A stretch of DNA of 21,427 nucleotides from a virus: the IMG/VR virus record IMGVR_UViG_3300046000_006213, positions 1-21,427 of that record. One strand, 5' to 3'. Under the pieces are notes generated by a model. It did no database searches. It was not told the origin of the DNA and saw only the letters and a program-made list of their open reading frames with translations. Numbering within the stretch: position 1 is the first letter of the stretch; each line of letters begins with the position of its first letter. Positions 2,319 through 20,703 of this stretch are shown one piece after another. The translations under genes and the position numbers were made by a program.

Positions 2319-2327
2319 TATAAATAT
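2319..2327 (-). promoter_or_regulatory. Putative late promoter box upstream of the Thr-Pro linker gene
   Basis: The minus strand reads ATATTTATA, 15 bases before the TTG start. It is one of seven intergenic copies. No -35 element is evident, as expected for a T4-like late promoter. Confidence 0.55.
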
Positions 2328-2343
2328 TTTAAAATTTAACTTT

Positions 2344-3594
2344 TTATATGGGTAATATTTCTTCAATTTTACCACACCACCCTTGTAATAAAGAGTGTGG
2401 TGATATTGTCCATTTACTAGGTTGAGCAATGGTTTCAAATTCAACCCATATTTCTATATTAGATTTCGTTTTAAATAATGTTATTTCATCAACACCTATA
2501 TCTTTTCTAAATAATTCAACACCATCTATATCGTTAAAGGTAAGTGCCCAAAAATTATAATCATCTAACGGCACTAAATCCATATTAAGATTAATACAAT
2601 GTTTAAACATCTTTATAAATGATGCATCGTAGTTCAAAGGACTAGTGATAACTGGATTAGGTGCTACTTTATTTTGTAAAGTATAGCTTTGAATGCTTCT
2701 ATCTCTAAAACGAATACCAGCATATGCTTCGTATTGTTGTAAGATTCGTTCAGTACCAAAATCATAAGGACCAAATTCCATATCACATCTACATTCTATA
2801 TCAATACCAAATAATGCTCTATTTCGTTTATGAGCATGAGTATTTTTATGAAACCATTCTTTATCATCTTCCCAATGTTTAATTCTATCCTTACGAGTAT
2901 ATTCGTGCCAAGCAATTATTATATGGGGATGAAATAAATCATAACCATGAGTATATGAACGAACAGCTAATGAAATTTCTTCACCATGAAAATAATATTC
3001 AGGATCATAAGGTACTTCCGTACACCATTGACCTAAGGTAAAAATAAAATGTGCTGATAGAAAACGTGATGAAATAGGTGATGTTAAGTTTTGCCAATCT
3101 GGTATAATAGCAGGTAAGAAAAATACAGCTCCTTCAGGAATAAATCTATCAAAAGTCATCCACCAAGATTCAATTACTCTTTCTTCAGGATCATTATTAG
3201 GATTGAAAGATGGTAAATAAGCAGTTAATAAAGGTTTTTTATGACCTTTTGATTTTAAATCTTCTAATGAATCAATACATTTAGTATCCCACCCTTCAAC
3301 AAAGCGATGATGTGAATCTAATTGTAAATAATAATCTTCACCTTGATATTGTTGTTGAATTAAATTTCTAGCCCAACATGTTCCTTTAGAATCATTATAA
3401 GGAATATCTATAATTGTAAAACGAGGATCAAATTGAAACTCATCTAAATTATCCCATTCATCTTCAATATTGTGTTGCCAAGCAATACCAAATCGTAAAT
3501 TAACAGGATTATCTGCTTTATTTATGCAGTCACGTAATGTGAATAATAATTGTGGATCTCTATAAGATGCAATAGAAATAAAAATAGTACTCAT
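2344..3594 (-). CDS. Glycosyltransferase, GlcNAc-transferase family (PF11397-like)
   Basis: This 416-residue enzyme should transfer a sugar, probably N-acetylglucosamine, from a nucleotide donor. The N-terminus IFISIASYRDPQL (4-16) is the typical opening of the family, QLDSHHRF (91-98) is the metal/nucleotide-binding DxH-type motif, and YFHGEEISLAVR (201-212) with the following HGYDLFHP is the conserved acceptor/catalytic region. Residues after about 305 form an extra C-terminal part, perhaps a small beta domain. The founding family includes the Dictyostelium Skp1 hydroxyproline GlcNAc-transferase. The gene lies among virion genes, between a ~322-aa structural gene and the Thr-Pro linker fibre gene, so the substrate may be a virion protein; modification of DNA or host glycans is the alternative. 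No signal peptide is seen, so it acts in the cytoplasm. Confidence 0.85.
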   Translation of the reverse strand: MSTIFISIASYRDPQLLFTLRDCINKADNPVNLRFGIAWQHNIEDEWDNLDEFQFDPRFTIIDIPYNDSKGTCWARNLIQQQYQGEDYYLQLDSHHRFVEGWDTKCIDSLEDLKSKGHKKPLLTAYLPSFNPNNDPEERVIESWWMTFDRFIPEGAVFFLPAIIPDWQNLTSPISSRFLSAHFIFTLGQWCTEVPYDPEYYFHGEEISLAVRSYTHGYDLFHPHIIIAWHEYTRKDRIKHWEDDKEWFHKNTHAHKRNRALFGIDIECRCDMEFGPYDFGTERILQQYEAYAGIRFRDRSIQSYTLQNKVAPNPVITSPLNYDASFIKMFKHCINLNMDLVPLDDYNFWALTFNDIDGVELFRKDIGVDEITLFKTKSNIEIWVEFETIAQPSKWTISPHSLLQGWCGKIEEILPI

Positions 3595-3635
3595 AACTAT
3601 AATATAATAACCTATTTTAACACAAACAAATTATG

Positions 3636-4604
3636 TTATAAAGGAGCTAATGATGATGTTGCTACTATAAATCCAAAAGTACAATCGGGAGGTATAATGT
3701 TAAATCTTATCAATGCTTTATTACTTGTTATCACTGTACCATTACCTAATGCTTTATCTACTGTATAATAAACATCATAAGTACCTTGTTGAAAAAATGA
3801 TTGAGGTGTAGATCCTGAAATCATTGATGGTTTTAGACTTCCTGAAAGTATAGTAATAGTAGATAATTGATCAGCACTACCTGATAATCTAATAGAACCT
3901 GTAGGTGTTGAGCCTGTAATAAAACTTCCTGATCTAACTAAGTCGTTAGCTAATATACTTGTACTTCCTGTTTTTATAAGATCGCTTGCTTTAAATGTGT
4001 AAATATTAGATACAGCAAGTGGTGGTAATGCAAACATATTTTGGTAAGACTGAGTGGTAACTACTGCAATACCTTGTGGGTAAAATATATTACCTATATG
4101 AACTGTTCCTTGATCGTATAAGTTACCATTACCGTCATCAGTTATATAATATGCAGAAGATGATAATACAAAATTATAAGGTAATACCTTACTACCATAT
4201 ACATCTTGATTAATAGCTAATACACGAATACCTTGGTTAGATCCTGTAGGTATTCTTTTTATTAATTTAGGATTTTCATCATACTTAAAATATGATGCTG
4301 TAGCATATGTTGTAGATGCTGATTCGTAAAAAATAGAATTAGCTAAAGAAGAAGTATTTAAAAGAGAACCACTAAAGTTTTGATAAAACATGTGGTTTAT
4401 TTGGTTATAAACTAAACGTTCATATTGTCCTTCAGTTACAGGGTCTGTAATAGGATTAAATATTCCGGTTAATCTAGTACCTTTATAAATTGTTATATAA
4501 CTACCACTTGAAGGGTAAGAAGTAACTGTACTATCCCACTGTTTATTAGCAGTGTAAGGTACATGCGTAACGTCCGATTTGTTGATTTGTTTGAATGATG
4601 ACAT
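3636..4604 (-). CDS. Virion structural protein, SGS-rich, related to its upstream neighbour
   Basis: This 322-residue protein has no enzymatic motif. A core at about 125-184 (from IRVLAINQDVYGSKVLP through TDDGNGNL to GNIFYPQGIAVVT) can be aligned with residues about 111-196 of the 323-aa protein encoded immediately upstream, and both also share a GQY(E/R)xLVY segment (about 59-66 here). The remainder is rich in Ser, Gly and Thr with many SGS tripeptides. The C-terminal third differs from the neighbour and ends in a beta-rich stretch with GTYDVYYTVD and NKALIRFNI. The start lies 7 bases after the stop of the neighbour. Similar cores occur in uncultured tailed-phage structural proteins that I know only as hypotheticals. 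A fibre or baseplate-periphery role is inferred from context. Confidence 0.7.
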   Translation of the reverse strand: MSSFKQINKSDVTHVPYTANKQWDSTVTSYPSSGSYITIYKGTRLTGIFNPITDPVTEGQYERLVYNQINHMFYQNFSGSLLNTSSLANSIFYESASTTYATASYFKYDENPKLIKRIPTGSNQGIRVLAINQDVYGSKVLPYNFVLSSSAYYITDDGNGNLYDQGTVHIGNIFYPQGIAVVTTQSYQNMFALPPLAVSNIYTFKASDLIKTGSTSILANDLVRSGSFITGSTPTGSIRLSGSADQLSTITILSGSLKPSMISGSTPQSFFQQGTYDVYYTVDKALGNGTVITSNKALIRFNIIPPDCTFGFIVATSSLAPL

Positions 4605-4611
4605 ACATAGA

Positions 4612-5583
4612 TTAATAGTCTAACTTAATTCTAATTAAGGCTTCCTTAGTAAAGTCTTTTACTAATGGTTTACTTAATTTAGCAACTGCCAATAATTCAT
4701 TATTATCATTATACATACCTACTGTGGTAATGTATGTTTGTGGATTGTTAATTAAAGTAGTATACAATAAATTACCATTTGCGTCTATAACAGATGGGTT
4801 TGTAGTATAGTTGTATTCTGTATTTTTAACACGAGTAAAGAAATAACGTGCTGAAATAGTTTCTGATGAATTTGCTGAAAAATTACTACCACTATAAACA
4901 GAATTATATAAGTTAAATTGATTATTTAAACTACCAGTTCCTCTACTTGAAGTAACAAAATAATTAGCACCACCACTTCCTGATAATGCGTTTGCATCTA
5001 AAATGATAGTGTTTAAATCTGGGAAGAATAAACCATAATATTTTGATGGTGTACCTGATGTAAAATAAGCTCCTGAACTTCCACTAATTATGTTATAATA
5101 TTTGTTTTCACCTACAAAACGAGATAAATTTGTAGTACCACTGTCGTCTGTTAATTTCAAAGTACCAGCGCTACCACTTAAAAATAAATTTAAAGAACCA
5201 GGTAATAAAGATTCTTTATAACGAGCTCTAGAAACGTTAATTACGTAAATAGAATCTGAAGTTGTTGAACCATTATCAAAACTAAAGTTTGTTGTTTCAG
5301 TTCCGTAAACTAAATTTCTGTATTGACCATAAACAACACGTGATGGTGAATATCCAGGAATAGCTGCATTAATAGGAGCTGAACCTGAACCACTTACGTG
5401 ACCATATTGGATACTAAATTGAGGAGCAAGATAAGTAGTATCATAAACATCTAAATAATATTCAGTAGCTGCTCCAAAGTTATAAAATGAAGTTAATGTT
5501 GCAGAATCTCCACTCCATAAACCACGTACTACGGTTTCTGAACTAATTACTGAATCTTCTGTTGCGTATCTTGTAAATGACAT
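4612..5583 (-). CDS. Virion structural protein with core module plus C-terminal module
   Basis: This 323-residue protein combines two modules seen elsewhere in the window. The central core (about 111-196, with LLPGSLNLFLSGSAG and TDDSG) resembles the downstream 322-aa protein. The C-terminal module (about 243-323, with YITTVGMYNDNNELLAVAK) resembles the 124-aa protein at 1191-1565. Between them are Ser/Gly-rich segments such as ALSGSGG and VYSGSNFS. No signal peptide, membrane segment or catalytic motif is seen. The ATG lies 13 bases after the stop of the 221-aa gene, so it belongs to the transcription unit that starts near 6284. It is likely part of the tail fibre or outer baseplate, but its attachment point cannot be told from sequence alone. 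Confidence 0.72.
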   Translation of the reverse strand: MSFTRYATEDSVISSETVVRGLWSGDSATLTSFYNFGAATEYYLDVYDTTYLAPQFSIQYGHVSGSGSAPINAAIPGYSPSRVVYGQYRNLVYGTETTNFSFDNGSTTSDSIYVINVSRARYKESLLPGSLNLFLSGSAGTLKLTDDSGTTNLSRFVGENKYYNIISGSSGAYFTSGTPSKYYGLFFPDLNTIILDANALSGSGGANYFVTSSRGTGSLNNQFNLYNSVYSGSNFSANSSETISARYFFTRVKNTEYNYTTNPSVIDANGNLLYTTLINNPQTYITTVGMYNDNNELLAVAKLSKPLVKDFTKEALIRIKLDY

Positions 5584-5596
5584 TGTCTATATTATT

Positions 5597-6262
5597 TTAG
5601 TTTGTAGCTACTTTTTGAATGTTTAAAGGAATAGTAATTCTAGCTCCACTATCTCTACCAATAAAGGTAATAGTAGTTGTTAATGTAGTCAAACTAGTTC
5701 CAAACAAAGTATTAATTGTTGTACCTGTTAATGTAAATGAAGTACCTATTTGACTTGTTGAAAGTACAGCACCTGAAGTTGTGTTTAAACCTGTAATTCC
5801 AGGGGTGGTTGTTGTAATACCTGTTCCTGCAAATGAAGATAATAATCTTGAATCAGAAACTGTTACTACATATCCATTTGTTTCAAATGTACTTGTAGCA
5901 CCTAAATAGTTAAGTGTTTGTGGAGTAATTGTCAATGATGCACCTTGACGTAATAAAATACTACTATAACCAACATTAATAACTGGTAAACGTGATGTAC
6001 CACGAGGTAAAGTTACTAATTTGTAACGCATAATTTGCGTATCTTCAGGGAAAGCTTCTATTACAGGCATGTTTTCAATTGCTTCACCATAGTAAGCAGA
6101 TCCTGATGGGTGGTTAGGATTATACAAAGTATAATCAACTTCATCATCAGCTAATGAAAACTGTGTAATTTGAAATGAACCATCGTTACGAGCCAATAAT
6201 TGACGGCCCTTAGTGGTTAATATTGCATCTACTGTTACGTACGTAGGATTTAAAATTGCCAT
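5597..6262 (-). CDS. Conserved phage structural protein (221 aa)
   Basis: This protein has a well-conserved-looking N-terminal half: ILTTKGRQLLARNDGSFQI (14-32), LADDEVDYTLYNPNHPSG (37-54) and AIENMPVIEAFPEDTQIMRY (61-80). I recognise this pattern from structural proteins of uncultured marine and freshwater tailed phages, but not a named family. The C-terminal half is Thr/Ser/Gly-rich and beta-like (about 140-221). It is the first gene after a promoter-like motif and heads a run of structural genes (323-aa, 322-aa). It follows the 1,621-aa giant gene after a 46-base gap. A role in the outer baseplate or in linking fibres to it is inferred from the gene order only. Confidence 0.7.
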   Translation of the reverse strand: MAILNPTYVTVDAILTTKGRQLLARNDGSFQITQFSLADDEVDYTLYNPNHPSGSAYYGEAIENMPVIEAFPEDTQIMRYKLVTLPRGTSRLPVINVGYSSILLRQGASLTITPQTLNYLGATSTFETNGYVVTVSDSRLLSSFAGTGITTTTPGITGLNTTSGAVLSTSQIGTSFTLTGTTINTLFGTSLTTLTTTITFIGRDSGARITIPLNIQKVATN

Positions 6263-6283
6263 AATTCGTTATGTTGTATATAT

Positions 6284-6292
6284 TATAAATAT
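6284..6292 (-). promoter_or_regulatory. Putative late promoter box upstream of the 221-aa structural gene
   Basis: The minus strand reads ATATTTATA inside the context AATATATTTATAATATATAC, 21 bases before the ATG at 6262. It lies in the 46-base gap after the giant structural gene. Confidence 0.55.
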
Positions 6293-6308
6293 ATTAAGTT
6301 GTTAATTT

Positions 6309-9300: not shown

Positions 9301-11174
9301 GTAACAAATAAAGAAGATGTAATTAATTTTCCACCAACATATGATCCAGAAAGATTAGAAATAATATTATAATAATCTTGGTTTGGTATACCAAATGTAG
9401 AAAGTAATGTTCTTAATCCAGCTACAGTACCTTTACGTTGTAATAATATAGGTAAGTTATGGTAAATACGTTTATATGATTCTGCTAAAATATCTTTTTT
9501 AGGTATGTTATTTAAATAACTACTTGTAGCAGAAAAATTTGTTAAATAACCATTATATGACGCACTGCCCGTATTTGAACCAACTAAATAATTAGCTATA
9601 TCTTGGTTACCAAAACTATTAAATACACTTATACCTAAAGATTGTAATAAATTATATACAACATCTTTAGAAATACCCAAATTTAAATTATTATTAGAAA
9701 CATTTACACTAGTAATAGATTTAATATATATCCAAATGTTATCAAAAAATTGACCCATCATATTTAAGAAAACTAAATAGTTCTCATTATTAGGATCATC
9801 TACTATAAAACCTGGTACTGAATATTTAAAATAATTTACATTATTTAAATCATAATCTTCAGCACTGGATGTAATAGAACTATACCAAGTTTTTGATTGA
9901 GAAGAAGTGGTTGGATATAAAGAATATGGTTTATTACTGCCTGATTTTGGAAAAGGTGTAACACCATATTGAAATGAAGATGTTAATGAACCTGATGAGA
10001 AATATAAATAGTTTTCAAATCCATCAAAATTAGCTATAATATTATTAATACTAGATGTATATGAATTTATTTCTGATTGTAAACTACTTGTAGTAGATAT
10101 ATTAGGAGTATATTGGCTTATAGTTTTATTATAAGTTTCAATTTTTTGTACTTTGGTATAAAAGTTTTGTACACGAGATAAAGCTGAACCAAATGTTACA
10201 AAACTATTAAATCCACCTCCTTCACCTCCTATACCATCAAAATTTATATTAATATTAATACTTTGAGAAACACTTAAATTTTGTAAAGCATCTTGGTTTA
10301 AAGCTAATTCATCTAAACTTTTATAATCATTTGAAGTTGTATTTGATCTATTAAATCTACCTCTATTTTTAAATTTAGGTCCTCTTAATTTATTTCCCCC
10401 TTCAGGTACAGAAAATATTGCATCAAGATTAAGATTAAATATATAAGGTGAAGAAATTTCTTCAACAACCCATAATGAATCTTTTTCAGATATTGTAGGA
10501 TCTAATTCATTATATAATTTAAATAATATTTCATATCCTGTATCTATAGGATTGAGAACTATATTAGTAATTATTTCTTGTCTATTGTTTGAAAAATCTA
10601 AAAGAAAAGGATCAAAAATAGAAGATGAAGAATAACTATTAATTAATTCTAAGGATCCACTTTCAAGTTGTGAATCTGTTAATACAACAGATCCAACTCT
10701 AATTTCAGTTCTATCAGGAGAAATTTCCTTAATAAATAAATCAGCATTTGGAAATTTTGATATTTTATTTTTAAATATGTTATATTGAACCTTAAATTCA
10801 CCAGATGTATATCCTAAATCTTGTAAATCCTGTACAGGATCAATTTCAATAATAGGATAAGTAGAAGATGTAGTTGATAAATTAGAAACACTTCCTACTT
10901 CAGCTCCTGTAGCTGTTGTATTATTTATATTTAAATTAGATGTAACTCCAGGATTTAAACTATAATTAGATGGTAATCTATATTGGCGATAGTCATAATT
11001 AGCATCTAATAAATTATTTCCAATATCATAAACATGATATTCAATATAATCTTTATTAGCATTAAAACTTTTTTGAATTTTTTTAGAGGTTATTAATCTC
11101 AAATCAGCATTATCGTAACGTGATACTTCTGTTGTATTTAATATACTACCTACTATTTTAATATTATCTGCCAT
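6309..11174 (-). CDS. Giant tail/baseplate structural protein (1,621 aa)
   Basis: This is the largest gene of the window. The N-terminus begins MADNIKIVGSILNTTEVSRY and continues as a beta-rich region to about 260, followed by a basic patch (KLRGPKFKNRGRFNRS, about 263-278) and a Gly-rich turn (GIGGEGGGF, about 314-322). A helical region near 562-605 has ESYKRIYHNLPILLQRKGT and GLRTLLSTFGIP; this 'IYHNLPxLLxxKGT' pattern recurs in large tail proteins of tailed phages. After about 600 the protein is Ser/Gly/Thr-rich with many SGS tripeptides and probably mostly beta-structured. Position after gp25, gp6 and the DNRLRE-like gene makes it a candidate for the large peripheral baseplate wedge component (a role like T4 gp7 or gp10) or a long fibre. 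I cannot identify it with a T4 gene by sequence. Confidence 0.75.
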   Translation of the reverse strand: MADNIKIVGSILNTTEVSRYDNADLRLITSKKIQKSFNANKDYIEYHVYDIGNNLLDANYDYRQYRLPSNYSLNPGVTSNLNINNTTATGAEVGSVSNLSTTSSTYPIIEIDPVQDLQDLGYTSGEFKVQYNIFKNKISKFPNADLFIKEISPDRTEIRVGSVVLTDSQLESGSLELINSYSSSSIFDPFLLDFSNNRQEIITNIVLNPIDTGYEILFKLYNELDPTISEKDSLWVVEEISSPYIFNLNLDAIFSVPEGGNKLRGPKFKNRGRFNRSNTTSNDYKSLDELALNQDALQNLSVSQSINININFDGIGGEGGGFNSFVTFGSALSRVQNFYTKVQKIETYNKTISQYTPNISTTSSLQSEINSYTSSINNIIANFDGFENYLYFSSGSLTSSFQYGVTPFPKSGSNKPYSLYPTTSSQSKTWYSSITSSAEDYDLNNVNYFKYSVPGFIVDDPNNENYLVFLNMMGQFFDNIWIYIKSITSVNVSNNNLNLGISKDVVYNLLQSLGISVFNSFGNQDIANYLVGSNTGSASYNGYLTNFSATSSYLNNIPKKDILAESYKRIYHNLPILLQRKGTVAGLRTLLSTFGIPNQDYYNIISNLSGSYVGGKLITSSLFVTNSYYTPTGSVISSSILNIKEYGGSTTAELLKGYNNNKVRIVNTTITGSVLSPLVSIQQYTSESSDFRTTDDHYVDVSFSPQTLIDTFASSSIISSNPSWSLDDYIGDPRQLYSGSYSDLNAQRSFYLSPLSSSIIPFTSTVGTGSMAATDYNNFIRLVQFFDNSLFKMLEDYVPGRASLSTGVTINSPVLERNKIAYANPNTTTVIAVGSNNISGSRITASYDPFYNQLQEDRVAYFDGAISGSQINIYDDYFTPGNFNPYARFIDLYNVNHSIYQQINESTFTRSKFNTLLNNVSGSLFASKRKNIEYLNNYYLQSTSSFLINSASLGPTFAPTGTLNINGVTFAITGSTLPTNTAKIIYVTSGSNALASMNNLTASFNASKSLAPYSSSIGNMYVTVSGSTGLYVYSNKLVSGSIGNTYYIVTKNNVTYSLASGSDFNYVTSSAQLQDSYLTLFSYNAPRYDGVKVSSVTYNTYTTASAVSGGYEGDVSYGKSAAIDQYVRKFGLFTQIVSSSFFPGRNATALKYLVDESGSLTELNQNLSNTPPSTHWFEIQNTFKQGKNSTIALFDNQQYSNQKTTDGVKPVFDSGYSYYPTLYFTSGSDQKLYFQYTGKGGSGVLMNINNTNNAIFYQSTATSSYAFTTGSGAVGSIGSIYSIFDTQDADFAQGNSNYFNIRSNPTITFPTYSISQYGINMAFSANFGINVQFPSSSMSASYKFDIINQPSGSSTTSSLATQTLTATSTLGNLSSILTFDINTSYNPFNKGDQITFQLKQFNYPTSFTASILSTGTGTPYSGLKNSISLAGANTYAFTGSSSVGQIGQFISGSSGINQLIINQSLSGFTDYLYLPATSSVLYASSSYGNVYYTFSPKVGDVALIYYSPTQYQELNISNVSINSNDNNKLVLTVTPNLVSSLVNTTYTPNTISKALFLSKIPDETNINLSFNKTDGQTSYGFIIPDNLSPEVLNNIDTITRQVQQKLLSTSTPSSGIIINTV

Positions 11175-11524: not shown

Positions 11525-12633
11525 TATCTTATAACTTTAAAGTAGTAATTATTATCATTTATAACTGTTTCACCATTAGCTAATATAGTTTTAAATAATA
11601 GTTTATAGTAGCGTTCAGGTTCTAACCCGTTCATGTATATGTCAAAATAATTACTAGTACTATCACAACTAATTTTGGTGTAGTTTGTATCGTAATCTAC
11701 GACTATTTCCTCGGTATCCAAATCTTTTATTGACCAATATGAAGAAGAAGGCAATGCTTTGTTATTTAAATAAACCGAACTAGTTTGAAATGTTCTAGCT
11801 GGAAATTTATCTCTCACATTGACTCTAAAACGTTGTACTGAGTCTTGTTGGTATTCACCTTTATTATTACCTAATGAAGGAACAAATAAATCATTAGTAA
11901 CTGTTGATAATGAACCTGTATATATTTGATCATCCCATCTAATTTCTAGACATGGTGGATAAATAGTGTGGGTATTACCTGAAAAATATTTTGTTTCAAA
12001 TTTAGAAGAAGATGCTGAAAATTCTAATGATGATGAGTGTTTAAGAATAAACCCATTATTATAAAGAGACCCAGCATACCAAGAAGCAACAGTATTAGTT
12101 ACTTTTAATTCTATATCTTTAGAAGTAATATATGTAAATGATTGAGTAGCTTGATAATTAGATCCAGTATACCATAAACCACCACCTATTGTTCCTCCAG
12201 TTCTATAAGAACCAGTAGTACCTGAAGGTATAGAACCATTAGAAAACCAAGGTGTTGCTACATCAGTTCCATCTTTATATTGCCAACCAACTCCATCAGT
12301 AGTAGTAGGTACATTACCTAATCTGCCAGTACCCATATTCCAACTTCCTGATAATGGGTGACAAAATATTGTGTAATCTAAAGGGATTGAGCTAGCATTA
12401 GCTAAATATAACTTTAAATAAGCGTCATAAGAATTATAACGGCCTATTGTGTTATTAATAAGATCATTAATTTGGTTAGTTGGAAATTTGATAACACCAC
12501 GTGCTACCTCATTAGTTTCGTTGATAGTGTAAAAAGTGCTAAGTTCTATAATTTCATCTAAACCCGTATTTAATGTTGGGTAAAACGAATATAGAGTAGC
12601 ACTCTTTTCAGGGAATATTTTATAAATTGCCAT
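11524..12633 (-). CDS. Virion protein with DNRLRE-like beta-sandwich domain
   Basis: In this 369-residue protein residues about 10-232 have the layout of DNRLRE domains: a start SATLYSFYPTLNTGLDEI (11-28), GVIKFP (46-51), LKLYLANA (73-80), a long loop with SGSWNMGTGR (95-104), ELKVTNTVASWYAGSLYNNG (175-194), and a closing strand YPPCLEIRW (225-233). Such domains are jelly-roll-like and occur in secreted, surface and carbohydrate-associated proteins. Residues about 255-369 form a second beta-rich domain, perhaps Ig-like, ending NNYYFKVIR. The first gene after a promoter-like motif, it precedes the coiled-coil and giant structural genes. I infer an outer baseplate or fibre component that may contact the cell surface; the DNRLRE match is by pattern reading, not by a profile search. 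Confidence 0.65.
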   Translation of the reverse strand: MAIYKIFPEKSATLYSFYPTLNTGLDEIIELSTFYTINETNEVARGVIKFPTNQINDLINNTIGRYNSYDAYLKLYLANASSIPLDYTIFCHPLSGSWNMGTGRLGNVPTTTDGVGWQYKDGTDVATPWFSNGSIPSGTTGSYRTGGTIGGGLWYTGSNYQATQSFTYITSKDIELKVTNTVASWYAGSLYNNGFILKHSSSLEFSASSSKFETKYFSGNTHTIYPPCLEIRWDDQIYTGSLSTVTNDLFVPSLGNNKGEYQQDSVQRFRVNVRDKFPARTFQTSSVYLNNKALPSSSYWSIKDLDTEEIVVDYDTNYTKISCDSTSNYFDIYMNGLEPERYYKLLFKTILANGETVINDNNYYFKVIR

Positions 12634-12650: not shown

Positions 12651-12659
12651 TATAAATAT
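12651..12659 (-). promoter_or_regulatory. Putative late promoter box upstream of the DNRLRE-like gene
   Basis: The minus strand reads ATATTTATA, 17 bases before the ATG at 12633, in the 44-base gap after the GH19 gene. Confidence 0.55.
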
Positions 12660-12677
12660 GGTAAATACTAAACTGTT

Positions 12678-13277
12678 TTACGCTAACAATGCGTAGAACT
12701 CATTAAAGTGTTTGATGCGATCATCTAATCCAATTGTACCACCATTAACACGTTTAGTAATTGACGTAACAACTGCTGTAGTTGCGCCACCATCTGCCAT
12801 TTTATGTAAACCGTTTTTATTAAAGAACCATGCCGCCGATGCTAATGGATATTGAGTTGCAACTGTTGTTGGATCGGTATTAACATCAGCACCAATTGAT
12901 TTAAAAAATGCTTGATAGTTAGATTTTCCAGTTAATTGAATATAACCGCGACCACAAAATTTAGCACCCTCACCACTTGCCTCATCGCCATTACCCATTC
13001 TAGATGAATAAACTTTATTAGCAATCTTTTCAGGTTTGCGTTCGTATTGTTTAGCTAAAGCTTCATTTGGAAAATATTTTTTAAATATACCCATTAAACC
13101 TTTAGCACTATAGTTTAAGTTTTCTTTTACTAATCTAAAATTACCTGACTCATGTCCGCATTGAGCTAAAAAATGAGCTAAACGTAATGGAGTATTAATT
13201 TCAAACTTCTCTATAACTCCTGGAATTTGAGCTATAACTGTGTCAGGAACATGTCCTTTTAATTTGTCTAATTTCAT
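12678..13277 (-). CDS. Glycoside hydrolase family 19 muralytic enzyme (endolysin or tail lysozyme)
   Basis: This 199-residue enzyme should cleave the glycan strands of peptidoglycan. GH19 hallmarks are seen: HESGNF (42-47) with the likely catalytic acid E43, a second acidic candidate E52 in KENLNYS, FCGRGYIQLTG (108-118), the aromatic AAWFF (148-152) and KRVNGG (175-180). Length is that of a stand-alone catalytic domain, with no signal peptide, membrane segment or separate wall-binding domain. It lies 12 bases after gp6 inside the baseplate operon, not in a holin/endolysin cassette, so it may be a virion-associated lysozyme; a conventional endolysin role is equally possible. By eye its base use is less AT-extreme than that of the structural genes around it, with more CG dinucleotides, which may reflect separate acquisition. 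Confidence 0.9.
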   Translation of the reverse strand: MKLDKLKGHVPDTVIAQIPGVIEKFEINTPLRLAHFLAQCGHESGNFRLVKENLNYSAKGLMGIFKKYFPNEALAKQYERKPEKIANKVYSSRMGNGDEASGEGAKFCGRGYIQLTGKSNYQAFFKSIGADVNTDPTTVATQYPLASAAWFFNKNGLHKMADGGATTAVVTSITKRVNGGTIGLDDRIKHFNEFYALLA

Positions 13278-13289
13278 AAATTTTTATTT

Positions 13290-15113
13290 TTATAATGTTA
13301 CAACTCTACCTTGAATATCTGTATCAGGATATCTAATTTCAAATATTGAAGGATCAGCTGATGGGTATATAACTCCACTCTGAGTGGCTCCTAAAATATC
13401 ATATCCAAAAGCAGAATATTCGCTTCCTGTAGGATCTTCTTTATTAATTATTGTTAAATTAGGAACTGATTGTACTCCATTTACTTGTAGTAAAAGAGAT
13501 ATAATTTCTGAGGTTACTATAGGTTGATCAATTTGCCATTGTTCTATATTAAAATAGGCTTTTAAAGATGTAAGACAATCTCTTAATACTGTTTGATTAC
13601 TAAAACCACTTGTTATAGTAATATCAAAATTAATACCTATGTTAATATAAAATGCATCTTTAATATTAATAGCATCAGTAACCATTCTATACTCATTTAG
13701 ATAAGTTACTAAATTTTCTTTTAATTTTGTAGTTGCTGCTGTTAATTTTTTATCTGAGTTGTAAGCTAAAATATACAAATCTAATGATAATGGGTTGGAA
13801 ATTGGTTTTGAAGATAAAGAAGGTTGTGGGTTTGTATAAATATCTTGAGTAATATAAGCTTTAGATATACTACCATAATCTGCAGGTAAAGATAATGCTC
13901 TTACAATATAATCATTTTTAGTTACAGCACGTAATTGAGATGAATGAGCATATAAAGCATTATTTCTAATTTCTTCTATTTCATCTCCACTTCTACCACC
14001 TGATGATGGGTTAGAATTTGTTGAAAGAATACTGTTTAATACAATGGTAGTTGTAGCATCATTTATTCCTGATTTAGTATAGGATGTTGAAGAGTTTATT
14101 ATAGTTAAATCATTAGCAGGTACATTAGAAGCAATACCTCCACCTACCAAATATCTAACTGTTAATGTTGTATTTGAAGGAGCTAAACCATATTCTTGAG
14201 TATAAAATATAGAAGATTGGTTATAATTATTTAATAAAGTTGATACACCTGGTACTAAACCTAGTCTAATATTATCTGGTGTTGGTATTATATTACTATC
14301 TGATTTATCAGACACACCTGCTCCAAATTCTAGTTGTAAAGTATTATCAGATAAAAGTCTTGAAACAAATCTACGCGGTACACGTTTTAACTTTAATAAA
14401 TAAGGAACTTGATCTGTATCATAGGTTGGATTAGTTAATTTATCATAAACTGTAGATTGAGCTAAATAAGGAACTTCATACCATATATTACCATCACTAT
14501 CAGTTACGTCTAAAATTTGCAAAATATTAGTATCATTGATAACTACATTTGAAAATTTTTGAGGATTAGTAAAGGTAAATGTTGTTGAATTTATTTCTGC
14601 TGATATAGCAGATATTGATTTTTTAACTAAAAAATAGTCAGCATTATAAAAAGTAACAGTAGCACTCCCAGTATCAGTAAAATCTACTTGTTGAGTCGTT
14701 AAAAATTTTGTTTGTGTTGTTGCCGAAGTTACAGTAGTGTTTGGTGGAATTATTAGGCCATAATTAGTATTAGGTATTATAGTTCCTCCATTAGGTATAG
14801 CAGGCATTAATTGAAAAATATCTAATGTAACTGATGAAGCATATGATGATTTAGGACGATATCCTAAAGTATATGAAGTAGCATATAAATTTTCTTTTTC
14901 CTTTGAATATAATAAAAAGTTTTCTTGTATTTGATTATCAAGATAAAAAGACATTACATCACCAACATATGAAGCCATTTCAATGAACATAGCTCCTGGG
15001 TTAGCATCAGAAAAATCATTATATGATGTTGGAAAATATGTTTTAGCATAATCTACTAGATTAGCTTTAAAGTCATTAAATCCTTTATTTAAATATGATA
15101 TATTATTAGCCAT
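13290..15113 (-). CDS. gp6: Baseplate wedge protein gp6 (baseplate J-like)
   Basis: This 607-residue protein matches the T4 gp6/baseplate J group, whose members form the inner wedge ring around the tail hub and transmit the signal for sheath contraction. The N-terminal part has the typical segment DANPGAMFIEMASYVGDVMS (36-55) followed by FYLDNQIQENF and LGYRPKSS. The later 'RSGDEIEEIRNNA' and LRAVTKNDYIVRA stretch (roughly 375-405) is the conserved J-family centre. The C-terminus carries repeated beta/helix segments ending RYPDTDIQGRVVTL. Length is close to T4 gp6 (about 660 aa). It starts 2 bases after the gp25 stop, and gp25-gp6 adjacency is conserved in T4-like phages, which supports both calls. 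Confidence 0.9.
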   Translation of the reverse strand: MANNISYLNKGFNDFKANLVDYAKTYFPTSYNDFSDANPGAMFIEMASYVGDVMSFYLDNQIQENFLLYSKEKENLYATSYTLGYRPKSSYASSVTLDIFQLMPAIPNGGTIIPNTNYGLIIPPNTTVTSATTQTKFLTTQQVDFTDTGSATVTFYNADYFLVKKSISAISAEINSTTFTFTNPQKFSNVVINDTNILQILDVTDSDGNIWYEVPYLAQSTVYDKLTNPTYDTDQVPYLLKLKRVPRRFVSRLLSDNTLQLEFGAGVSDKSDSNIIPTPDNIRLGLVPGVSTLLNNYNQSSIFYTQEYGLAPSNTTLTVRYLVGGGIASNVPANDLTIINSSTSYTKSGINDATTTIVLNSILSTNSNPSSGGRSGDEIEEIRNNALYAHSSQLRAVTKNDYIVRALSLPADYGSISKAYITQDIYTNPQPSLSSKPISNPLSLDLYILAYNSDKKLTAATTKLKENLVTYLNEYRMVTDAINIKDAFYINIGINFDITITSGFSNQTVLRDCLTSLKAYFNIEQWQIDQPIVTSEIISLLLQVNGVQSVPNLTIINKEDPTGSEYSAFGYDILGATQSGVIYPSADPSIFEIRYPDTDIQGRVVTL

Positions 15114-15115
15114 TA

Positions 15116-15526
15116 TTATTGAAATTGTACTGTTACTTGGTCTGGGGTATTAGAAATTATTAAACGATAGTTTATAGTTACACTTAAAGTATTTGAATCA
15201 GGATCAGGTGAAATTTCTACGTTTCCTAATACTATTTCAGGAATAAAAATATTAATAGCATCTATTATTTTAAATCTTAAAAGATCTAAATTAGGTGTTG
15301 TTATATTTTCAAACAAAGATCTTCTTAAATCAGCCCCAAATTCAGGATTCATTATGCGTTCACCTTTATCAGTCAATAACAAATTAATTAAATTTGATTT
15401 GATTTGATCTTTTGTGCTGTATGTTTTATTAAAAACACCAGCAGCATTGAAAGGCAATGATACCCCAATTACAATATTCTTTTGTAAATCTAACGGATTT
15501 ACACGTATTGTTTGAGGTATTGGCAT
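15116..15526 (-). CDS. gp25: Baseplate wedge protein gp25
   Basis: This 136-residue protein is the gp25-type wedge component, related to TssE of type VI secretion systems. It helps join the gp6 ring to the tail hub and seeds sheath assembly. The diagnostic segment is LLLTDKGERIMNPEFGADLR (49-68), followed by SLFEN, where the G-E-R and P-x-F-G residues are those conserved in the family. The C-terminal half gives the expected beta strands (NVEISPDPDSNTLSVTINYR). Length is near T4 gp25 (132 aa). Its ATG lies one base after the stop of the 125-aa gene, and gp6 follows almost directly, so the three are one translational cluster. Confidence 0.93.
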   Translation of the reverse strand: MPIPQTIRVNPLDLQKNIVIGVSLPFNAAGVFNKTYSTKDQIKSNLINLLLTDKGERIMNPEFGADLRRSLFENITTPNLDLLRFKIIDAINIFIPEIVLGNVEISPDPDSNTLSVTINYRLIISNTPDQVTVQFQ

Positions 15527-15527
15527 A

Positions 15528-15905
15528 TTATCCTAAATTTTTAAGACCTGATCTTTCTTGTGGTGTCATATTGTTTGCTGAATCAACCAAAAATGCTAAG
15601 TATGGATTAACAGGTTCACCTGTTTCATCATTAACTTGATCACGTATAACCTCTAAAGGCACACTTGATTGATACTGTTGTGGTTGAGGAGCCATACCAA
15701 ACATAGATCCCATCTTTTCAGCTAATTGGCTACGTACAGCCGCGTTAGGCTTAATATCGGTACTAGTAAAATTCATTGTTTGGTTTTCAGACAATGGTTT
15801 TCTGTTTTGACGAGCCATAGCTTCGTTTAAAATTTCAGGTAATTCTTCGTGAATAGCATCAATTACCGCTTCTTTAATTAATCTTTTAAATGCTTTAATG
15901 TTCAT
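15528..15905 (-). CDS. Small conserved protein in the baseplate operon (125 aa)
   Basis: I choose the ATG at 15905 (protein start MNIKAFKRLIKEAV) over the ATG at 15944, because the longer version overlaps the 467-aa gene by 26 bases and adds a low-complexity lead, while the shorter start falls 13 bases after that gene's stop and directly behind a promoter-like ATATTTATA. The protein has an N-terminal amphipathic helix (about 3-30), a middle with MGSMFGMAPQPQQ, and a C-terminus with PYLAFLVDSANNMTPQERSG. No family is recognised. Its place between the 467-aa protein and gp25 suggests a role in tail-hub or wedge assembly, perhaps as a minor component or chaperone. No membrane segment is seen. 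Confidence 0.7.
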   Translation of the reverse strand: MNIKAFKRLIKEAVIDAIHEELPEILNEAMARQNRKPLSENQTMNFTSTDIKPNAAVRSQLAEKMGSMFGMAPQPQQYQSSVPLEVIRDQVNDETGEPVNPYLAFLVDSANNMTPQERSGLKNLG

Positions 15906-15908
15906 AAT

Positions 15909-15917
15909 TATAAATAT
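15909..15917 (-). promoter_or_regulatory. Putative late promoter box abutting the 125-aa gene start
   Basis: The minus strand reads ATATTTATA only 3 bases before the ATG at 15905, in a 13-base gap. If it works as a T4-like late box, the transcript would begin at or in the start codon (leaderless), so function here is less certain. Confidence 0.4.
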
Positions 15918-15918
15918 T

Positions 15919-17322
15919 TTATCCTTGTAAATTTTGTTGATCAATAACTAATTTTAATTGATTTACCAATTGTTGTGGATCTAATGTAAATGAATAATCA
16001 CTTTTTAATTGTTCTACATTTTTAGTATCAACAGCAACAACATAATGGCGTTTATTACCTTTTACTACAAATTTAATATCAACTTCTTCTTTAATAACAA
16101 ATGTAAACCCTTTATAAGTTCCAAATTGGTTAGGAGTAGGTTGATTAAGAGCGCCCGCTGGGTATATTTCATTTATTAGTTGTTGAACAGCGGGAGATGT
16201 AGAACGGCTTAATGGATCTTCACTAGCTAATCTAATTTGTGATAAATAATCACTTAACTCACTTGGTGTTAATAATTCTAAAGTTTTATCTTCTATTAGT
16301 TGATTTAAATCACGTAATTGTCTTTTTAAATCTTCTAATATATCAATTGATGTTTCTAATATTGAAGTTCCTATAGATAATGCTGTTGATATACCTCGTA
16401 CAATATATAAAGCTTTAGCAGCTAATACTGCAAGTTTTTTAGCTATTGTACCTCCAGGTGCAAGTATATTTTCTAATATCCTTAAAACTATAGATAATAT
16501 CAATAATACAACATTAATAGTTCTTGCAAGCTTTAATAAGTCTTGAACTTTTTTCTCTTGTCTATTAATTATATTTATACAAGCATTTCTAGCTACTCTA
16601 GCCTGGTTTATTGAATCTAATGTTGTAGCGGCTTCTATAATAATGTTAGTTGAATCAACTAATCTTTGTAAATTACCATTATCAGAAACTACTTGAATTA
16701 ATTTTTCTGTAATTTGAGCTATAATAATATTAGATAAAACATTAAATAAAAGACGAGAAATTTGTTTTCTTTTTTCAGCTTTAGCTAATTTTTTTTCTAA
16801 ATCTGTTCTTCTTTTTTTTTCTTCTTTTTCTAATTTTCTTTTAGTTTTTCTTTCTTTATATTTTATAAAATCTCCTAATACTATTTTTTCTAATTTCTTT
16901 TTTAATCCCGGGTATTTTTTAGGATCAGCAGGATCTCCATTTAATTCTTTATCTATTATTTTTTTTTCTTCTTCGTAATTTGCATTTTCTTTAATAAGAG
17001 CAAGTGCATATTCCTCTTCAGTTAATACTGGGGGAAATACTTCCACTGTATTAAGACTAGTAACTACAGAAGTAGGTTCAGAATCTGCTTTTAATTGCCT
17101 TTGATTTAAAGCATGATTTATTTCTAAATTAATAGATCTTTTAACTGTATCTTCAATTTCTTTTTTTATTAAATCAACAGCATTTAATAATGTAGTTTTA
17201 ACATATTGTTTAGCACTATCTACAAGTTGATTACCAAAAGCCTTTGGATCTTTAACTGCATTAATAGTTACATTTACTTCTCGAGGAACAAACTGAGATA
17301 AATTTGATTTAATATCTGCCAT
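15919..17322 (-). CDS. Tail/hub protein with Lys/Glu-rich coiled coil and long hydrophobic helices
   Basis: This 467-residue protein is not recognised. It has four visible parts: an N-terminal segment with amphipathic helices (about 25-75); a strongly charged, coiled-coil-like stretch at about 101-188 (including KRKLEKEEKKRRTDLEKKLA); a hydrophobic helical half at about 189-330, with IAQITEKLIQVV, INVVLLILSIVLRILENIL (269-287) and KLAVLAAKALYIV; and a C-terminal domain (about 395-467) that looks globular (GTYKGFTFVIKEEVDIKFVV). It follows the gp5-like spike with a one-base TAATG overlap and precedes the 125-aa and gp25 genes. That position suggests a tail-hub, tape-measure-like or membrane-active injection protein. 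It is shorter than typical tape measures. The coding strand holds an A9 run near 16812-16820. Confidence 0.7.
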   Translation of the reverse strand: MADIKSNLSQFVPREVNVTINAVKDPKAFGNQLVDSAKQYVKTTLLNAVDLIKKEIEDTVKRSINLEINHALNQRQLKADSEPTSVVTSLNTVEVFPPVLTEEEYALALIKENANYEEEKKIIDKELNGDPADPKKYPGLKKKLEKIVLGDFIKYKERKTKRKLEKEEKKRRTDLEKKLAKAEKRKQISRLLFNVLSNIIIAQITEKLIQVVSDNGNLQRLVDSTNIIIEAATTLDSINQARVARNACINIINRQEKKVQDLLKLARTINVVLLILSIVLRILENILAPGGTIAKKLAVLAAKALYIVRGISTALSIGTSILETSIDILEDLKRQLRDLNQLIEDKTLELLTPSELSDYLSQIRLASEDPLSRSTSPAVQQLINEIYPAGALNQPTPNQFGTYKGFTFVIKEEVDIKFVVKGNKRHYVVAVDTKNVEQLKSDYSFTLDPQQLVNQLKLVIDQQNLQG

Positions 17323-18530: not shown

Positions 18531-18536
18531 ATGTCA

Positions 18537-18935
18537 TTACTTATTAGTTTCGTATTGTAGTTGTTGTGGTTTTGGGGCTTGATCTAATAATTTTTTACCT
18601 TCTTCTTGAATGGCTTTTTGCTCTTCTAACAAAGCATTAATTTCATCCATATTAATTAAATCCATCCCCGCATTACCATTAACAGTTGAAGCACGTTGTG
18701 CAATAGCTGCCATTTTAATTAATTGTTCGTTATTTTTTACATTAACATCAATTAAATCTTTAACAGTAGGCATTAACATTACCGCGGAACCCGCGTTAGA
18801 TGTTGCCATAGGTTTCATAACATCAATAAATTCACCGATTTGTTTATCGATATCTTTATTATTCTTATGTATCTTTTTAAATAAATCCGATAAAGACATA
18901 CCATCGAATACAGATACGTCATCAAAATTAGCCAT
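18537..18935 (-). CDS. Conserved 132-aa protein heading the baseplate operon
   Basis: This protein begins MANFDDVSVFDGMSLSDLFK and continues as a mostly helical chain: KKIHKNNKDIDKQIGEFID (20-38), a central stretch SAVMLMPTVKDLIDVNVKNN (51-70), EQLIKMAAIAQRA (71-83), and a Glu/Lys-rich helix at about 97-121 ending in a PKPQQ tail. The 'VFDGxSxxDLxKxI' opening recurs in small proteins of marine T4-like phages, always of unknown function as far as I know. It is the first gene after the sigma factor and the first of the baseplate cluster, preceded by a promoter-like motif. A minor virion or hub-assembly function is likely from context. No membrane segment or signal peptide is seen. Confidence 0.7.
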   Translation of the reverse strand: MANFDDVSVFDGMSLSDLFKKIHKNNKDIDKQIGEFIDVMKPMATSNAGSAVMLMPTVKDLIDVNVKNNEQLIKMAAIAQRASTVNGNAGMDLINMDEINALLEEQKAIQEEGKKLLDQAPKPQQLQYETNK

Positions 18936-18949
18936 AAAATGCGTTTACG

Positions 18950-18958
18950 TATAAATAT
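18950..18958 (-). promoter_or_regulatory. Putative late promoter box upstream of the baseplate operon
   Basis: The minus strand reads ATATTTATA, 14 bases before the ATG at 18935. A second, overlapping TATTTATA lies at 18956-18963, making this the only doubled site. It sits in the 29-base gap behind the sigma-factor gene. Confidence 0.6.
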
Positions 18959-18964
18959 AAATAA

Positions 18965-19750
18965 TTAAATCTTTATATACCCATGATCGTAATATTCATT
19001 ATATAATCGAGTACGTAATGTATCTAACTTTTTAATAATTTTAGTTATCTGAGGGGTGGATACATCTGTCATCTCGCGAATATAAATGTATAGAGCCTTT
19101 TTATTAAATATTTCTAGCGTTTCACGCTTACGAAATAATTCAATAATAGCGTCTGCCGTCTGGGCATCGTGAGATTTAGGAAATAATGTGTGGATATGTT
19201 TATCAATATATCTAATATACTGATTGATAAATAGATTCGGAGAGTGCATTTCATCAATAGCATCCATTGATTCGTATAGTTGAGTTTTATCCTCATCTAT
19301 TTCATCAACATCTGCTTTTTCTTGTAACTTTTTATAGTTGTTCTCGTTATATACAATTAAGTAACGTTTAGCAATAGTACCAAAGTAACTAAATGCTTTA
19401 CCCTTCTCAGATTTATATAAATGTAATTTTTCAAGGAGAAAAGTAATCACCTCATGTTTTAATTCTTCAATTGTATCAGTATCGGTATAGTAAAACTTAA
19501 ACGTATGAATAATATTCTCAGCTAATTTATAAAAACCATATTTAATACGCTCATTATAAATGCGATTACGTTCAGCCATATCTGTGGTAATAAGGTACTC
19601 CACAATAGCATCCTCAGTATCTTGAGTAAAGTAAATTCTTGGTTCTTTTGGTTTACGCTTACGAGGTTTACCGCGTTTAGTTAACGCTATCGTTTCATCA
19701 TCGTCTCCGAAAATGTCGTAGTCATAATCTTCTTCATATGAATAGGCCAT
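18965..19750 (-). CDS. gp55: gp55-like late-transcription sigma factor
   Basis: This 261-residue protein should redirect the host RNA polymerase to phage late promoters. Sigma region 2 is clear at about 70-132: YGFYKLAENIIHTFKF, then IEELKHEVITFLLEKLH (94-110) and GKAFSYFGTIAKRYLI (117-132), the hallmark -10-binding segment. A helix-turn-helix-like stretch near the C-terminus (LYIYIREMTDVSTPQITKII, about 220-239) could act as a reduced region 4. The protein is longer than T4 gp55 (185 aa) because of an acidic then basic N-terminal tail (about 1-38: DYDYDIFGDDDE, then KRGKPRKRKPKEPR) and a longer C-terminal half. In T4 the protein also binds the sliding clamp through its C-terminus; here the end is LYNEYYDHGYIKI and clamp binding is unproven. 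It directly precedes the baseplate operon. Confidence 0.88.
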   Translation of the reverse strand: MAYSYEEDYDYDIFGDDDETIALTKRGKPRKRKPKEPRIYFTQDTEDAIVEYLITTDMAERNRIYNERIKYGFYKLAENIIHTFKFYYTDTDTIEELKHEVITFLLEKLHLYKSEKGKAFSYFGTIAKRYLIVYNENNYKKLQEKADVDEIDEDKTQLYESMDAIDEMHSPNLFINQYIRYIDKHIHTLFPKSHDAQTADAIIELFRKRETLEIFNKKALYIYIREMTDVSTPQITKIIKKLDTLRTRLYNEYYDHGYIKI

Positions 19751-19773
19751 GTTATTATCTTAGTTTTAATAAC
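19751..19773 (-). other. Inverted repeat in the leader of the sigma-factor gene
   Basis: GTTATTA and TAATAAC form a perfect 7-base inverted repeat around a 9-base loop, ending directly at the ATG of the sigma gene. The hairpin would be weak (one G-C pair) but could cover the ribosome-binding region. No T tract follows, so it is not a terminator. Confidence 0.35.
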
Positions 19774-19803
19774 AGTATACGAAAGGAAAAGGACGTAACC
19801 AAA

Positions 19804-20082
19804 TTAGTTTTTACGATTATTGAATTGACTTACTAAAGTTTGTATTTCCTTTAAGTTTTGGAAGAAAGTACCTACTTCATCATCGGCTTGGAATGCACCC
19901 TGTAAATCAAGTTCTTTTAAACGAGATTCTCCATCGGCAGCAATAATACCAATAGCGTCAATATATTCTTGTTGTTGAATAAAAGCCTTTTCTAAAGCAT
20001 TATTACGTCTAATAATTAAAAATGCTCCAATAGCAATTAATTCGATTATGTGGATTATAAAAACCCATAAAGCTATCATCAT
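19804..20082 (-). CDS. Small membrane-anchored protein
   Basis: This 92-residue protein begins with a hydrophobic segment at about 3-24 (IALWVFIIHIIELIAIGAFL, then IIRR), followed by positive residues RRNNALEK, which suggests a single N-terminal membrane anchor with the rest in the cytoplasm. The remainder is helical, with QQQEYIDAIGIIAADGESRL (36-55) and a conserved-looking C-terminus DDEVGTFFQNLKEIQTLVSQ (67-86). Similar 'DDEVGxFFxxLKEIQ' endings occur in small proteins of T4-like marine phages, with no known role. Two consecutive ATG codons mark the start; the sequence GAGGATAATTTATG upstream, partly the end of the previous gene, could act as a ribosome binding site. It is 3 bases from the 65-aa gene and precedes the sigma factor by 53 bases. 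Confidence 0.75.
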   Translation of the reverse strand: MMIALWVFIIHIIELIAIGAFLIIRRNNALEKAFIQQQEYIDAIGIIAADGESRLKELDLQGAFQADDEVGTFFQNLKEIQTLVSQFNNRKN

Positions 20083-20085
20083 AAA

Positions 20086-20283
20086 TTATCCTCTAAATTG
20101 TTGTGCAAATTCATCAGGTTCAACAGAAATCATTTCGCGAACTTTTTCAATTGCTTCTTTTAATGTTTCAATAGATTCAAGAATTTGATCTTGAGGAACA
20201 TTTCTATTCACTTGAATTTGAATGCGATTAGCAACCGCTTCTGTTTGTACCAATTTGTCTAATACGTTATTTTTGTATCTCAT
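20086..20283 (-). CDS. Small helical protein (65 aa), unknown function
   Basis: The protein (start MRYKNNVLDKLVQTEAVANR) is predicted to be almost wholly helical, with a coiled-coil-like stretch QILESIETLKEAIEKVREMI (33-52) and an acidic end. Its stop is separated from the next gene by only 3 bases (TAATTTATGATG), so it is probably co-expressed with the membrane protein downstream and could be its partner. A promoter-like ATATTTATA lies 14 bases upstream. No family is recognised; short coding proteins with this opening are, to my knowledge, found in T4-like phages as hypotheticals. Confidence 0.7.
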   Translation of the reverse strand: MRYKNNVLDKLVQTEAVANRIQIQVNRNVPQDQILESIETLKEAIEKVREMISVEPDEFAQQFRG

Positions 20284-20433
20284 AGTATATGTTTATATAT
20301 AAATATATGTGCTTTTCCGTTCCCGCTGTTCCTATCATTATTCTCGTTTCTTTCTATCTACCTGTTCAAACCAACTGTAGGTGGAAGTTACGAAAAATAT
20401 TTTATATTTCCAAAGAAAGAGAGTAACTTTTGG
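20284..20433. other. Longest intergenic gap (150 bases)
   Basis: It holds most of the terminator-like hairpin at one end and the promoter-like box at the other. Between them is a comparatively GC-richer island (about 20311-20335; minus strand AGGAACAGCGGGAACGG, with a repeated GGAAC 9 bases apart). I see no tRNA and only a 23-codon open frame that I do not support. Confidence 0.5.
20298..20306 (-). promoter_or_regulatory. Putative late promoter box upstream of the 65-aa gene
   Basis: The minus strand reads ATATTTATA, 14 bases before the ATG at 20283, in context CACATATATTTATATATAAAC. It would drive the 65-aa, membrane-protein and perhaps the sigma-factor genes. Confidence 0.6.
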
Positions 20434-20440
20434 TTACTCT
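20420..20440 (-). terminator. Terminator-like hairpin overlapping a stop codon
   Basis: AGAGTAAC and GTTACTCT form a perfect 8-base stem with a 5-base loop. On the minus strand the 3' side is CTTTCTTT, a moderate T-rich tail; on the plus strand it is TTATTTC. The TAA stop of the 85-aa gene lies inside the stem. It separates that gene from the next unit, which has its own promoter-like box. Confidence 0.6.
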
Positions 20441-20691
20441 TTATTTCTAATATTTTTTAATTCTTCTCGAATCATTGCTTTAAGTTGCTCTTTAACCTGA
20501 CTAATTTTAGGTGAACGCTTAAGTACAGTATTAACCATATTAACTATTTCGGGTTGTTCAACAGTAAATTCAAATGTATTATCTAATTTATTATCTGTTA
20601 TATCAAAGCTATCAATATTAACATTTAATGCCTGTAAGTGATTAAGCAATGCTGCTTTATCTTCTAATTTTATTTTGTAATGTTTTGCCAT
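20434..20691 (-). CDS. Small protein of unknown function (85 aa)
   Basis: The protein begins MAKHYKIKLEDKAALLNHLQ and has an N-terminal helix, a strand-like middle (NIDSFDITDNKLDNTFEFTV, 25-44) and a Lys-rich helical end (QVKEQLKAMIREELKNIRN, 65-83). The layout, helix-strand-helix with a basic tail, resembles small nucleic-acid- or partner-binding phage proteins, but I recognise no family. The LIREEL-type ending recurs in short phage structural or accessory proteins. Its stop codon is embedded in a terminator-like hairpin, so it probably ends a transcript. A promoter-like ATATTTATA lies only 3 bases before the ATG. Confidence 0.65.
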   Translation of the reverse strand: MAKHYKIKLEDKAALLNHLQALNVNIDSFDITDNKLDNTFEFTVEQPEIVNMVNTVLKRSPKISQVKEQLKAMIREELKNIRNKE

Positions 20692-20694
20692 ATC

Positions 20695-20703
20695 TATAAA
20701 TAT
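20695..20703 (-). promoter_or_regulatory. Putative late promoter box abutting the 85-aa gene start
   Basis: The minus strand reads ATATTTATA 3 bases before the ATG at 20691, the same unusually short spacing as at 15909. A transcript from it would be almost leaderless, or the motif serves another role here. Confidence 0.4.

Follow-up and report, generated by a model that had tools for sequence, protein, structure and literature searches.

The question raised by IMG/VR record IMGVR_UViG_3300046000_006213, the whole 21.4 kb (kilobases) of which forms the window analysed here and which is probably a genome fragment, is what purpose is served by a nine-base motif, ATATTTATA, that stands on the coding (minus) strand in seven of the gaps before its genes. 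The original prediction, made from the DNA letters alone, read this motif as the late-promoter box of phage T4 in reverse orientation. We found all seven copies where it had placed them, each before a gene, and consider that they are probably late promoters of a T4-related Bacteroidota phage, read in the sense direction by a phage gp55-related sigma factor (open reading frame, ORF, 18965-19750) together with the host RNA polymerase. The sites are listed below, with the distance in nucleotides (nt) to the start codon counted from the last base of the motif.

20695-20703, minus strand: putative late-promoter box ATATTTATA, 3 nt before the ATG at 20691 (85-aa ORF); predicted leaderless
20298-20306, minus strand: putative late-promoter box ATATTTATA, 14 nt before the ATG at 20283
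18950-18958, minus strand: putative late-promoter box ATATTTATA, 14 nt before the ATG at 18935
15909-15917, minus strand: putative late-promoter box ATATTTATA, 3 nt before the ATG at 15905 (125-aa ORF just upstream of the gp25-like gene)
12651-12659, minus strand: putative late-promoter box ATATTTATA, 17 nt before the ATG at 12633
6284-6292, minus strand: putative late-promoter box ATATTTATA, 21 nt before the ATG at 6262
2319-2327, minus strand: putative late-promoter box ATATTTATA, 15 nt before the TTG start at 2303

Eight copies of ATATTTATA were seen on the coding strand, whereas whole-window shuffles that kept dinucleotide composition gave 3.87 on both strands, i.e. approximately 1.9 per strand, in agreement with the chance expectation of fewer than two per strand given in the original prediction. 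The gaps, which it had rightly taken to be a few percent of the window, amount to 3.4%, yet seven of these eight copies lie in them; when the gaps were shuffled one by one with dinucleotides kept (5000 trials), the mean was 0.18 and the maximum 3, and the observed number of seven was never reached. The reverse complement of ATATTTATA has no copy in the gaps of the window. The single same-orientation copy reported within a gene was also found:

13835-13843, minus strand: copy of ATATTTATA inside the gp6-like baseplate gene, probably a chance occurrence

Two further copies, which had gone unmentioned, both lie within genes, one of ATATTTATA on the plus strand at 16571, in antisense, and one of CTATTTATA at 10003.

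Two IMG/VR searches with the sigma ORFs each returned at least 600 matches, and the phage group is therefore very large. Among annotated genomes the window is closest to those of Flavobacterium phage immuto (160 kb; laboratory host Flavobacterium sp. LMO8) and Microcystis phage Mel-JY01 (190 kb), and to the uncultured LR756508. A clade-wide first pass with k-mers was swamped by orthologous gaps, and genomes were hence analysed singly, the gene calls on metagenome contigs being simple ATG ORFs. A scan of related phages had been proposed with the original prediction, and in six large related genomes, including immuto, upstream gaps proved to be strongly enriched in the motif, which mostly runs in one direction. 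In a de novo search of each genome, ATATTTATA was the top enriched upstream 9-mer in G002 (18 copies compared with 0.8 after shuffling), G003 (31 compared with 1.5) and G004 (21 compared with 1.0), and its reverse complement occurred 0, 1 and 0 times respectively in the upstream gaps. The immuto genome has 16 copies on the coding strand and one on the other; far from being equally frequent inside genes, 14 of the 16 fall in gaps that form 4.6% of the genome, where they precede the terminase, tail sheath, tail tube, baseplate hub and tail spike genes. Across 80 related loci, 206 of 238 sense copies were in gaps, with 24 reverse copies in all, and long contigs displayed strand ratios of 24:1, 38:3, 26:1 and 23:1. 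The core form TATTTATA, counted in sense in upstream gaps, gave 24 copies in immuto (2.4 shuffled) and 32 in G003 (4.0 shuffled), and the T4 box TATAAATA gave 7 (2.6 shuffled) and 10 (5.4 shuffled). As a positive control, T4 itself was taken through the identical pipeline and returned TATAAATA 17 times in sense and 7 times in reverse, with 1.9 after shuffling. These data show that the motif is no quirk of the window fragment, but is seen genome-wide in its relatives.

The core of the element is MTATTTATW (M = A/C, W = A/T), a terminal T being a common variant, and it has no fixed -33 element. Over 134 sites, the base preceding TATTTATA is A in 80% and C in 18%, the fourth base downstream of it is A in 78% and G in 12%, and there is a weak preference for G 17-19 nt upstream of the core. 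A conserved -35 element was sought over the same sites and none was found, as no position upstream of the pre-core base exceeds approximately 0.2 bit; the absence of such an element noted in the original prediction is thereby confirmed. Read in sense, TATTTATA already matches TATAAATA at six of eight positions and differs only at T4 positions -10 and -9, with the A residues at -12 and -8 retained. The bases flipped in T4 are A-12, A-9 and A-8 (PMC7892883), two of which are thus kept in TATTTATA.

The proposal of a T4 box in reverse orientation did not survive this comparison. It is true that TATAAATA is the exact reverse complement of TATTTATA, so that genuine T4 late boxes might lie reversed and drive antisense or upstream-directed transcription, but any palindrome-like AT box shows a resemblance of this kind, and the strand bias, the A at the fourth base downstream, the A/C before the core and the distance to the AUG all tie the element to the sense gene. 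Moreover, the flanking genes are nearly all co-directional, and T4 carries TATAAATA predominantly in sense in our own pipeline. On the strength of strand bias, flanking-gene direction and AUG spacing we discarded the reversed box, which we regard as extremely improbable.

The motif marks late genes. In five genomes, MTATTTATW precedes 33 of 56 late (virion and packaging) genes and 7 of 49 early genes (p=2.5e-6), a table that is approximate as the class labels derive by homology from the immuto annotation and BLASTP; five of the seven early genes with a box are PhoH, which is located among head genes in immuto. In immuto itself, TATTTATA stands before 8 of 13 late genes with a gap, compared with 0 of 15 early or metabolic genes. 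The window contains T4-type baseplate genes (gp25-like and gp6-like), an endolysin and a primase, the first three of which are positioned as follows.

15116-15526, minus strand: gp25-like baseplate wedge gene; late, downstream of the 15909 box
13290-15113, minus strand: gp6-like baseplate wedge gene; late
12678-13277, minus strand: endolysin of the glycoside hydrolase 19 type

Early genes have a promoter consensus of their own, TTG-N20-TATATTTR, which is distinct from the late box. In immuto and G006 the early-type sites read TTG-N20-TATATTTA, with the TTG at one spacing in 19 of 20 and 26 of 27 sites respectively, and in Mel-JY01 they read TTG-N20-TATATTTG (8 of 12). This uniformity is weaker in G002, G003 and G004, which belong to clade A and where a minority of early-type sites have the TTG at the fixed spacing. 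This early-type class is the host-type Bacteroidota promoter (TTTG / TAHHTTTG; PMC6847099). Close relatives have a host-like promoter of their own for the sigma gene, and the window holds two candidates:

748-778, minus strand: putative host-type early promoter of the primase gene; TTG (776-778), N20, TATATTTG (748-755), 5 nt before the ATG at 742
19773-19803, minus strand: putative host-type promoter of the sigma gene; TTTG (19800-19803), N20, TATACTG (19773-19779)

These two promoter classes bear on whether the boxes might be weak forms of the host -7 element (TAHHTTTG) on which the host primary sigma acts with no help from a phage protein. The late box has a TATTT run in common with Bacteroidota housekeeping promoters, ATATTTA overlaps the TATATTTG/A of early promoters in the same genomes, and Flavobacterium johnsoniae promoters show little -33 conservation (PMC6847099). 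However, a fixed-spacing TTG of the kind found with N20 at the early-type promoters of immuto, G006 and Mel-JY01 was sought at the late boxes and not found, its spacing there being scattered. In addition, the late boxes are without the host TA and G, the CTATTTATA form cannot provide the TA of TAHHTTTG, A or C precedes the core in 98% of sites, and the gene classes are separate, with the sigma gene itself never carrying a late box (0 of 73). We hold this explanation to be improbable. The likeness to the Bacteroidota TAnnTTTG pointed out in the original prediction is real but partial, a true host-type class existing separately in the same genomes. Its suggestion of a late-promoter class with a changed recognition sequence was supported, in that the motif is conserved genome-wide in relatives, is associated with late genes and is distinct from the early promoters of host type.

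Other features of the early-type promoters were also recorded. In immuto, at approximately 60-77 kb, there are at least 14 near-identical early promoters of the form TTG-N20-TATATTTAGGTAT(CAATAATTAAAAC), mostly before small genes, and early-type promoters in the clade of the window have an GGCAAAAT or TTGTCAAAA element (AGGCAAAAT in that of the primase) in the stretch that separates -33 from -7, possibly a middle-promoter activator site. The early-type promoters of Mel-JY01 fit the Bacteroidota consensus (TTG-N20-TATATTTG) and this phage encodes ribosomal protein S21 among its head genes; the cyanobacterial host on record may be mistaken, or the true host may be a companion bacterium of the Bacteroidota. 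A pattern search of IMG/VR for relatives of the Mel-JY01 sigma found none.

Given a late box distinct from the host-type promoters, we then considered which protein might read it, the candidate being encoded directly upstream of the 18950 box:

18965-19750, minus strand: putative gp55-related sigma factor; predicted sigma region 2 fold at residues ~40-140 and extra C-terminal helical domain at ~165-261

This ORF gave no family match above cut-offs and a Protein Data Bank sequence search with the sigma profile gave no match, and members of its family weakly match Sigma70_r2 and a phage sigma PHROG (best E 0.002). In its AlphaFold model (mean predicted local distance difference test score 73.8), residues ~40-140 match sigma-2 domains with Z up to 9.0, at 2.3-3 Å over approximately 90 residues, the best-resolved structural match being 1or7 (Z 9.0, 2.3 Å over 89 residues); middling Z values are common for helical models, and nearly all of the structural matches listed are sigma factors. 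The fold predicted by the model is that of sigma region 2. The C-terminal domain (~95 residues) has no clear fold match, and as a candidate sigma-4 domain it was modelled and searched separately, with no sigma-4 match worth citing. When whole genomes were searched with the T4 late-sigma profile phrog_234, this ORF, whose homologue in immuto is gp118, was the only one matched, with E 0.008 in immuto and E 0.013 in G006; at an equally loose cut-off, however, the profile also matches in 7 of 14 control genomes. In a tentative alignment to gp55, the tyrosine aligned to T4 Y97, which stacks on A-12 in T4 (PMC7892883), is invariant (54 of 54), and the residues aligned to the -9 pocket (N13 and H95) are mostly T/Q and F/Y, a change that agrees with the A-to-T change at -9 of the box.

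The distance between the box and the AUG is bimodal, being either 3-5 nt (most often exactly 3) or at least ~9 nt, and this bimodality is new here. Among 105 gene families, the modal spacing was exactly 3 in 12, 3-5 in 18, 6-12 in 7 and 13-20 in 50, and in the family of the 15905 gene the spacing is 3 in 129 of 134 members, in both clades, the immuto homologue at 81525 being one of the spacing-3 genes. An A at -3, which is a translation signature of Bacteroidota, is found in 70% of long-spacing genes and in 43% of short-spacing genes (n=14). Were RNA to start at the fourth base downstream of the box, a spacing of 3 would leave no nucleotide ahead of the AUG, and the next class able to work would have leaders of ~6 nt or more. 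The late mRNAs of spacing-3 genes are predicted in this way to be leaderless, with the AUG at or beside the RNA 5′ end, whereas leaders are the rule in the host phylum: in F. johnsoniae, in which the start lies 4-5 nt downstream of the -7 element, leaders exceed 10 nt in 87% of predicted transcripts (PMC6847099), and in Bacteroides thetaiotaomicron only ~3.7% of 5′ untranslated regions are under 10 nt (PMC7366714).

The position of the box on the sense strand and near start codons would also suit a signal that acts in the RNA, either to enhance translation or as a processing site (AUAUUUAUA), in place of a promoter in the DNA. Two discrete spacing classes fit a ribosome site poorly, however, and early genes with equal translation needs are without the box. 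Furthermore, in Mel-JY01, where Shine-Dalgarno sequences seem to be present in the leaders, the box lies further upstream, mostly 31-39 nt from the AUG. An RNA-level role is thus very unlikely, and in the promoter model that we favour the host RNA polymerase with the phage gp55-related sigma (18965-19750) would open the DNA at sense MTATTTATW with no fixed upstream element, and RNA would start at a purine, in most cases A, approximately four bases downstream. Where this A falls within the start codon the late mRNA would have no leader, and otherwise it would have an A-rich leader of ~6 nt or more. Early genes, including the sigma gene in close relatives, would be transcribed through the host sigma at TTG-N20-TATATTTR-like promoters, and the boxed genes would be switched on late.

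Several observations weigh against this interpretation. The similarity of the sigma ORF to gp55 is weak by sequence: the profile-profile comparison with hhalign, despite a favourable P of 0.0014 over 92 columns, gave a probability of 17%, PHROGs gave E 0.5, and Foldseek alone found no match for the sigma model below E 0.001. The gp55-like sigma of the original prediction is supported in its predicted sigma-2 fold, and its similarity to gp55, weak and apparently specific, is tempered by this low hhalign probability and the matches in control genomes. A T4-type clamp was sought with PF02916, PF09116 and PF00705 and none was recognised in these phages, a diverged clamp being possible. The gap before the major capsid gene lacks a box wherever tested (G002, G003, G006 and immuto), in which T4 gene 23 differs, and beyond co-transcription we cannot explain this. 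LR756508 (484 kb) has a sigma homologue, yet showed no box signal, neither TATTTATA nor TATAAATA, in the 1-220 kb searched, and its late promoter must differ from the box of its relatives. Finally, the start some four bases downstream is itself predicted from the A/G preference and the AUG spacing, and a few genes with a spacing below 3 would be unserved by it.

The case of LR756508 and the weak sequence link to gp55 would also fit a promoter read by some other phage protein, such as a transcription factor or activator, and that ORF 18965-19750 reads this box is something that we infer. Against such a protein, in 159 of 160 relatives from clades A and B (the remaining one not assessable) the core, intact or with a single mismatch, precedes the gene after the sigma gene, so that the box is conserved beside the sigma gene in both clades, and it is also present at some loci where the sigma shares only 42-54% identity. 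As the sigma-2 fold is predicted for this ORF and no -35-like or activator site is visible, we think another reader unlikely and retain the gp55-related sigma as our candidate.

In comparison with known systems, the sites resemble the late promoters of T4, used by gp55 with gp33 and gp45, in having a lone AT-rich 8-bp box near -10, before virion genes and with no -35 element, and gp55 likewise has only region 2 recognisably sigma-like (PMC2988020, PMC7892883). The T4 likeness extends to the six of eight box bases shared in the sense alignment. They differ in the box, MTATTTATW here and TATAAATA in T4, in a start point that appears closer here, in the many sites that predict leaderless mRNA (the T4 control has spacings of 13-52 nt), and in a larger sigma with its extra C-terminal domain and no recognised clamp of T4 type. 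This late-promoter class would thus work in the manner of T4 late promoters, although both the box and the sigma have diverged, but strictly it is no T4 late promoter because the box sequence differs. An altered late box within the T4 family has been described in silico for Aeromonas phage Aeh1 (PMC2988020), although the change there is at -13/-12 (a/gC) and here at -10/-9. We found no description of the motif in the open literature searched (motif, immuto, Far-T4 late promoter and Flavobacterium phage promoters), subscription papers being outside its scope.

A wider generalization is offered tentatively and with some doubt, namely that widespread T4-related Bacteroidota phages combine a diverged gp55-type sigma and MTATTTATW with many AUG-starting late mRNAs, and do so without a T4-type sliding clamp. 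If true, late transcription would be coupled to leaderless translation in a phylum that rarely uses leaderless mRNA. The box also provides a late-gene promoter signal for a very common aquatic phage group with hardly any annotated regulation, so that late operons could be called from sequence alone, and it offers a natural test of how the specificity of a gp55-type sigma changes, as two box bases and the residues aligned to one base pocket are altered. From the fixed AUG spacing, leaderless late mRNAs are predicted for hosts without Shine-Dalgarno use, and the immuto isolate is suited to testing this.

Elsewhere in the window, two homing-endonuclease-like ORFs were seen at 761-1201 and 20801-21313, a SegE-type GIY-YIG and one with a T5orf172 domain. 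The ORF at 1575-2303, among tail or structural-looking genes, contains a threonine/proline repeat (TPTPTITPT...).

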